Positions 12,942 through 14,174 of a stretch of 64,000 nt of DNA are shown here, one piece after another. Below the pieces are notes generated by a model. The model saw only the letters and a list, made by a program, of their open reading frames with translations, did no database searches and had not been told where the DNA came from. Origin of the DNA: Brevundimonas sp. M20 (GTDB taxonomy: Bacteria > Pseudomonadota > Alphaproteobacteria > Caulobacterales > Caulobacteraceae); NCBI RefSeq assembly GCF_006547065.1, contig NZ_CP041243.1, forward strand, positions 2,123,001 to 2,187,000, written 5' to 3'. How positions within the stretch are numbered: the first letter of the stretch is position 1; each line of letters begins with the position of its first letter. The position numbers and the translations under genes were made by a program.

Positions 12942-14174
12942 ATGAAGACCGCTGATTTCGACTTCCACCTGCCCGACGACCACATCGCGCTGCGCCCCGC
13001 CGAGCCGCGCGATTCCGCCCGCCTGCTGGTGGTGCGTCAGGATGGGCTGGACGACCGGATCATCCGCGATCTGCCCGACTTCCTTCGTCCGGGCGACGCC
13101 CTGGTGTTCAACGATACCCGCGTGATCCCTGCCCGCCTGTCCGGCGTGCGCGAGCGGCCCAACCCCGGGGTTGGGGGCGCGGACGGCGGCACCCTGACCG
13201 TCGAGGTCGAGGCCACCCTGCACCACCGCGACGCCCCCGACGTCTGGTCCGCCTTCATGAAGCCGGGCAAGCGGATCAAGGCGGGCGACCGCATCGTCTT
13301 CTCACCTCCCCTTCCCCTCGAGGGGGAAGGGGTCGGGGGATGGGGTGGAGGCAGTCCGCTTCAAGATGAGGCGCATGAGGCCGCATCGAACCCGACGTCG
13401 CAAATCTCCCCCCATCCTGCCACCACCCCCACCCAACCCTCCCCCCTCGAGGGGGAGGGCTTGAACGCGGTCGTGGTTTCAAAAGGCGACGACGGCCTCG
13501 TCACCCTGAAATTCGATCTGACCGGCCCGGCGCTGGACGACGCCATCCGCGACGTCGGGGTCATGCCCCTGCCGCCTTACATTGCAGCAAAGCGCCCCGA
13601 GGACGACCGCGACCGGTCTGACTACCAGACCGTCTTCGCCGAACACGACGGCTCGGTCGCCGCCCCCACGGCGGGGCTGCACTTCACCCCGGCCCTGCTG
13701 GAGGCCCTGAAGGCGCGCGGCGTCTCGAACCACGCCGTGACCCTGCACGTCGGCGCCGGCACCTTCCTGCCGGTCAAGGCGGACGACACCGCCGACCACA
13801 AGATGCATTCCGAGTGGGGCGAGGTCTCGCAGGAGATCGCCGACGCCCTGAACGCCGTCCACGCGAGCGGCGGCCGCATCGTCTGCGTCGGCACCACCTC
13901 GCTTCGCCTGCTGGAAAGCGCGACCGGCGAGGACGGCGTGGTCCGCTCCTTCCACGGCGACACCGCCATCTTCATCACCCCCGGCTACCGCTTCCGCGCC
14001 GTGGATGTGCTGATGACCAATTTCCACCTGCCGAAGTCGACCCTGTTCATGCTGGTCAGCGCCTTCGCGGGGCTGGACACCATGAAGGCCGCCTACGCCC
14101 ACGCCATCCGCGACGGCTATCGCTTCTATTCCTACGGCGACGGCAGCCTGCTGTTCCGGAGCCCCGAGGCATGA
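12942..14174 (+). CDS. queA: tRNA preQ1(34) S-adenosylmethionine ribosyltransferase-isomerase QueA, with an in-frame repeat insertion
   Basis: QueA transfers and isomerises the ribosyl group of SAM onto preQ1 in tRNA to give epoxyqueuosine. Family motifs are Phe-Asp-Phe-His-Leu-Pro at the N-terminus, [18 protein letters not shown] and Thr-Asn-Phe-His-Leu-Pro-Lys-Ser-Thr near the C-terminus. The protein is 410 residues against about 350 usual; the excess is residues 121-173, a Pro/Gly/Glu-rich translation of the inverted-repeat element at 13302-13460. It sits between a beta strand (Asp-Arg-Ile-Val-Phe) and the next conserved block. ATG 12942 matches homology. The stop overlaps the next gene (ATGA). 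Confidence 0.95.
13302..13460 (+). repeat. Inverted-repeat element inserted in frame within queA (copy A)
   Basis: Copy A begins with the near-palindrome CCCCTTCCCCTCGAGGGGG (13308 on) and ends with CCTCCCCCCTCGAGGGGGAGGG (written here as two arms around TCGA 13447-13450). The segments just inside the palindromes are also inverted (GGGGGATGGGG near 13335, CCCCCCATCC near 13410). The whole adds 159 bases, a multiple of three, with no stop codon in the queA frame. Copy B is at 30758-30907. It resembles small non-autonomous mobile repeats. Confidence 0.9.

Follow-up and report, generated by a model that had tools for sequence, protein, structure and literature searches.

For some palindromic repeats of bacteria, no mover is known. 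In REPIN/RAYT systems (REPtrons and TIRtrons), the short form, the REPIN, consists of two inverted palindromes with a spacer, while the enzyme gene, which encodes a tyrosine transposase, is flanked by REPs or TIRs. According to the part of PMC3733652 available to us, some REPs are located inside genes. Rickettsia palindromic elements (RPE), as presented in the accessible text of PMC10969869, are palindromic, ~150 bp long, and located in frame inside unrelated conserved proteins.

Here, we analyzed a 64,000-nucleotide stretch of the Brevundimonas sp. M20 genome (the window), in which queA carries a repeat that shares features with these systems. Like RPE, it is a dispersed ~150-bp palindromic repeat that lies in frame in unrelated conserved genes (those for QueA, E2, and an Lhr-like helicase). 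Unlike RPE, it occurs in another host order, has two separate GC-rich hairpins, shares its loops with several other hairpin families, and is linked to a nuclease gene. The first-pass annotation of this DNA had proposed a class similar to that known from Rickettsia; by analogy, the likeness appears to hold for the way in which the element works but not for membership of RPE. The CIR elements of Caulobacter are likewise dispersed repeats of a related bacterium and are set apart by their description as strictly intergenic in the same accessible text (PMC10969869). The resemblance to REPIN/RAYT lies in the inverted palindrome pair with its spacer and in an enzyme gene between such ends; however, the enzyme here would be a PD-(D/E)XK-type nuclease and not a tyrosine transposase, and the RAYT family PF01797 is absent from this genome.

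A palindromic element in frame in queA

queA (12942..14174, + strand) was identified from the list of open reading frames and encodes a protein of 410 aa, in which PF02547 covers residues 3-403 (protein taken from 12945). In the two alignments examined, the solved QueA chains 1wdi and 1yy3 match this protein in two pieces, with the breaks at query residues 123-168 and 120-176, respectively. Based on its arms, its fold, and BLAST, the insert is a palindromic element of 152 bp (13308..13459, + strand) that keeps the reading frame. It comprises a left hairpin, CCCCTTCCCCTCGAGGGGGAAGGGG (13308..13332, +), a core of ~100 bp (13333..13436, +), and an inverted right hairpin, CCCTCCCCCCTCGAGGGGGAGGG (13437..13459, +), with CTT directly after it; other copies show the same CTT (by eye). 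The core is similar among the longer copies, whose BLAST matches span nearly the full length and have identities of 73-77%. The arms at 13309-13348 and 13420-13459 are complementary at 80%, and the RNA fold of 13302-13466 has a predicted energy of -93.3 kcal/mol (z -4.9), with none of 200 shuffles as good. All four occurrences of CCCTCGAGGG in the window are within the two element copies, while 100 shuffles gave a mean of 0.33 and a maximum of 3 occurrences. An Rfam scan of the window identified two tRNAs and nothing else.

The first-pass annotation had described QueA as longer than usual through an in-frame, palindrome-ended repeat of about 150 bp at a loop, with a homologous copy elsewhere in the window. 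The split alignments, the hairpins spanning 152 bp end to end, the frame that reads through, and the second copy at 30758-30906 bear this description out, as do the relatives. A search of 121 genomes of the genus matched QueA in 116; the best 30 loci were read, and 13 queA loci were viewed as DNA. By protein alignment, 22 of these 30 closest loci have no insert, which supports both the excess length and the loop. Long inserts at this position in seven of the 30 loci, our own included (L036-L042), would favor the reading of the segment as an ordinary loop passed on vertically. Against it, two unrelated hairpin families account for the inserts, one further locus (L044) has a single hairpin, most loci are free of an insert, and the dispersed copies of the repeat already contradict such a loop, which we therefore regard as extremely improbable. 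As the first-pass annotation had held, queA carries an in-frame copy of a dispersed palindromic element; the finding is real, and its kind is known. The outcome that this annotation had named as refuting, a segment highly conserved in queA of relatives and without copies elsewhere, is not what we observed.

Hairpins in other conserved proteins

The chromosome (3,315,348 bases, one contig) has 34 BLAST matches to the repeat at E <=0.001, which we grouped by eye into about 19 places. Among 17 own-genome loci inspected for spanning frames, three have the element in frame inside conserved proteins, with Pfam domains assigned for these three: QueA (L001), the lipoyl acyltransferase E2 (L002), where the copy sits between the two lipoyl domains, and the Lhr-like helicase (L007), where it sits between the DEAD and helicase-C domains. 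In an amidase frame whose true start is uncertain, a fourth copy (L010) supplies some of the N-terminal sequence. The E2 and Lhr-like copies, the fusion of the second window copy to a DUF559 gene (see below), and the differing element families in the same loops go beyond the first-pass annotation. We note that three short copies (L020 near 2766 kb, L028 near 229 kb, and L030 near 401 kb) lie close to another shared repeat, which was seen in the DNA of the first two loci and in translated frames of L030.

E2 was matched in all 121 genomes, and in the 30 loci read, at least one hairpin as defined by pattern was inside the E2 match in 16, versus 3 of 60 flanks. These hairpins represent at least three families and are located in interdomain linkers (by eye), while E2 of other species has plain Ala/Pro linkers. 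The Lhr-like gene was also matched in all 121 genomes; among the 30 loci read, the insertion site was found by motif in 13, ten with two hairpins and three with one, and the other 17 were unscored. Here, too, the hairpins belong to several families. The closest Lhr-like relative (L291, 91% identity) has another hairpin family than our genome in the same place (compare L290), which suggests a hot spot or element replacement. In relatives, the loops of the insert-bearing proteins are either plain or filled in frame by other hairpin families. The data show a way for repeats to furnish conserved enzymes, time and again, with loops and interdomain linkers.

The window has two further repeat features. 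A solo hairpin, CCCCTCTCCCGATGGGAGAGGG, is located at 58941-58962 and could be a terminator. Direct repeats at 37254-37514 and 38176-38436 (261 bases, 74% identical, 922 bases apart) are perhaps paralogous genes.

DUF559 genes and their terminal inverted repeats

The second element copy (30758..30906, +) forms an in-frame fusion with the 3' end of a gene for a DUF559 (PF04480) endonuclease-like protein of 175 aa (30386..30913, +), such that the last ~51 codons are repeat-derived. The start of this gene overlaps the stop of the upstream open reading frame (TGATG), and its stop overlaps the next start (TAATG); thus, tight operon packing is kept around the element. A structure model of the protein has a mean pLDDT of 80.6, with a poorly ordered repeat-encoded tail. 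Profile and fold comparisons both place 3hrl nearest among solved proteins, followed by the EDxHD-type homing endonuclease I-Bth0305I; Vsr (E 0.21) and TnsA (E 3.4) are weak matches. The catalytic-type residues are invariant in both alignments, and the modeled fold together with the conserved acidic residues points to a putative PD-(D/E)XK nuclease. The family member YcjD has been assigned to these nucleases, as stated in the available part of PMC1189080. I-Bth0305I is catalogued as a mobile intron protein; DUF559 differs in having hairpin ends, introns having been sought by the Rfam scan of the window only.

Our genome has five PF04480 matches, all of which we read. Four have matching inverted repeats on both sides (by eye). 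To score such ends, we locally aligned the left flank with the reverse-complemented right flank; three loci scored high (30, 43, and 41.5), a locus with an internal stop (L032) scored 13.5, and the window gene, which has a complete short element on its 3' side and none on its 5' side, scored 10. The DUF559 gene at 893.8-894.3 kb, between glyQ and glyS, is flanked by the same hairpins as the queA element. One locus (L031) shares its ends with short copies in the manner of MITEs and their source, and we infer that L031 is an autonomous element.

Terminal inverted repeats are also present at DUF559 loci of other genomes, the scored loci being the best matches to the query and not a random sample. 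In the genus set (35 loci, six dropped for short contigs), 21 of 29 loci reached the threshold of >=20, compared to 0 of 814 controls (0/30 queA loci, 0/316 window tiles, and 0/468 tiles in relatives). Within the phylum, 15 of the 30 best loci scored >=18, versus none of 60 sham controls. Among annotated records (35 matching, 21 fetched, and 20 scored after omission of L137, in which the domain is inside a very long gene), ten were positive versus 0 of 40 sham controls; several of these rows are near relatives, and the positives include three Deinococcus records and one Pseudanabaena record. For the best 80 of 565 relatives in a wider collection, seven of which were dropped for a missing flank, 49 of 73 loci scored >=18 (including L231, score 22.0) versus 1 of 270 sham controls, although three of the 49 (18.0, 19.0, and 20.0) lie below the highest sham score (20.5). 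Titles of the wider positives include Chloroflexi, Myxococcota, Planctomycetota, Bacteroidetes, Gastranaerophilales, and Acaryochloris. By score, 8 of 29 genus loci (the window gene among them), 15 of 30 phylum loci, 10 of 20 annotated loci, and 24 of 73 wider loci are without a terminal inverted repeat. A common end of the DUF559 loci has the form CCCTCTCCC-loop-GGGAGAGGG-TTGGGGTGAGGGT. An earlier null, in which the left end of one locus was compared with the right end of another, gave little support, with only 2 of 35 loci at p<0.05; we discarded it because true relatives inflate it and used the genus, phylum, annotated, and wider controls instead.

Site occupancy, covariation, and possible mobilization

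PF04480 is present in 114 of the 121 genus genomes and, weak matches inside large proteins included, in 68 of 200 phylum genomes. GlyS was matched in 115 of the 121 genomes, and we read the best 30 loci at the glyQ-glyS junction, where DUF559 was called by motif and not by HMM. Thirteen junctions are empty, nine have the DUF559 motif with two to four hairpins, two have hairpins only, four have other inserts, and two are unreadable. This variable presence of hairpin-flanked DUF559 copies speaks against the possibility that DUF559 proteins act in mismatch repair or defense as nucleases, with the repeats serving their operons as regulatory or terminator hairpins. In the accessible text of PMC12907096, the Caulobacter DUF559 protein VsrA is read as a mismatch-repair nuclease, which cells without the methyltransferase ScmA require for their SOS response; this is in favor of the possibility. 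However, besides the variation at the junction, short copies without a DUF559 gene are dispersed and present inside coding genes, and we consider this explanation improbable.

Repeat similarity follows DUF559 protein similarity (Mantel r 0.43 for 83 loci that have clear ends and are free of stops), as also seen separately for 22 genus loci (r 0.52) and 61 others (r 0.35), each with 0 of 2,000 permutations as high; this test and the copy-number tests leave host relatedness in. Of the 114 genus genomes with DUF559, 56 have the queA-type hairpin, versus 0 of the 7 genomes without DUF559 (Fisher p 0.015); the rank correlation across the genomes is 0.51. Evidence is weaker for a second hairpin family, CCTTCTCCC (rho 0.34), which is abundant in some genomes without a DUF559 match (37, 25, 17, and 15 copies). 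As a marker, the count of this hairpin was rejected: it is too general, also taking three-base-loop hairpins, and gave p 0.29 for genomes with versus without DUF559.

Hairpins in genomes lacking a DUF559 match, as well as the other inserts at four glyQ-glyS loci, speak for an alternative in which another mover acts on the short elements, these being ordinary MITEs or REP-like repeats, and either dispensable DUF559 genes collect them or DUF559 homes into existing hairpins. On the other hand, both ends of the DUF559 loci closely match each other and differ between DUF559 clades, and RAYT, the sole transposase family searched (PF01797), is found in just 4 of the 121 genus genomes and is missing from the other 117. 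Weighing both sides, we regard this alternative as unlikely, albeit clearly less so than operon hairpins of a repair nuclease.

We consider it rather probable that the queA insert derives from a DUF559 element as a non-autonomous, REPIN-like form and that a homing-endonuclease-like DUF559 protein moves it. The autonomous form would be a DUF559 gene between the same hairpins, and the short form would be a hairpin pair around the ~100-bp core. The DUF559 protein, with its PD-(D/E)XK-type, I-Bth0305I-like predicted fold, would recognize the hairpin ends and move or copy both forms, perhaps by acting on the ends when these are single stranded at replication forks; alternatively, the target might be cut and repair would then copy the element, as in homing. 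Copies in frame at tolerant loops or interdomain linkers would survive and become protein segments. That DUF559 cuts the hairpins and drives mobility is what we infer from this arrangement, and the link is strong as anatomy and unproven as mechanism. No target-site duplication that was convincing or consistent was seen by eye at the junctions, and neither a fresh jump between close strains nor transposition was seen. Azospirillum plasmids were rejected as a clean empty site; the seven records with most of the region span the whole query and thus provide no empty allele.

Judged from sequence comparisons, these data suggest that this kind of element spreads with the little-studied DUF559 nuclease family of many bacteria. 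The broader proposal, that DUF559 (COG2852, YcjD) is the mobilizing nuclease of a previously unrecognized class of hairpin-ended elements across many phyla, with the GC-rich hairpin repeats of many genomes, in-frame protein segments included, as its non-autonomous offspring, is in our view evenly balanced. With its matching hairpin ends across phyla, this small nuclease family would be a concrete and testable mover. The literature searched, including the available parts of PMC12907096, PMC10969869, PMC12817139, PMC1189080, and PMC3733652, contained no statement linking DUF559 to hairpin ends; this literature covers few subscription papers, and prior work may exist.

Escherichia coli K-12 carries the DUF559 member ycjD. 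At this gene, located between sapF and fabI (L126, L127, and L134), GC-rich hairpin repeats are on the 3' side only, and the locus fails the inverted-repeat score. These are presumably the repeats that go under the name "RSA," for which our literature search returned no paper. As an insertion/deletion pair, ycjD was rejected: two strains without ycjD (L132 and L133) have efflux genes beside sapF, and one paper describes this sapF-side place as occupied by either ycjD or the eef efflux operon, which does not amount to a clean jump. In other bacteria, DUF559 genes are found within tight operons, with pnt, suf, and paa genes on both sides (L131, L136, and L144).
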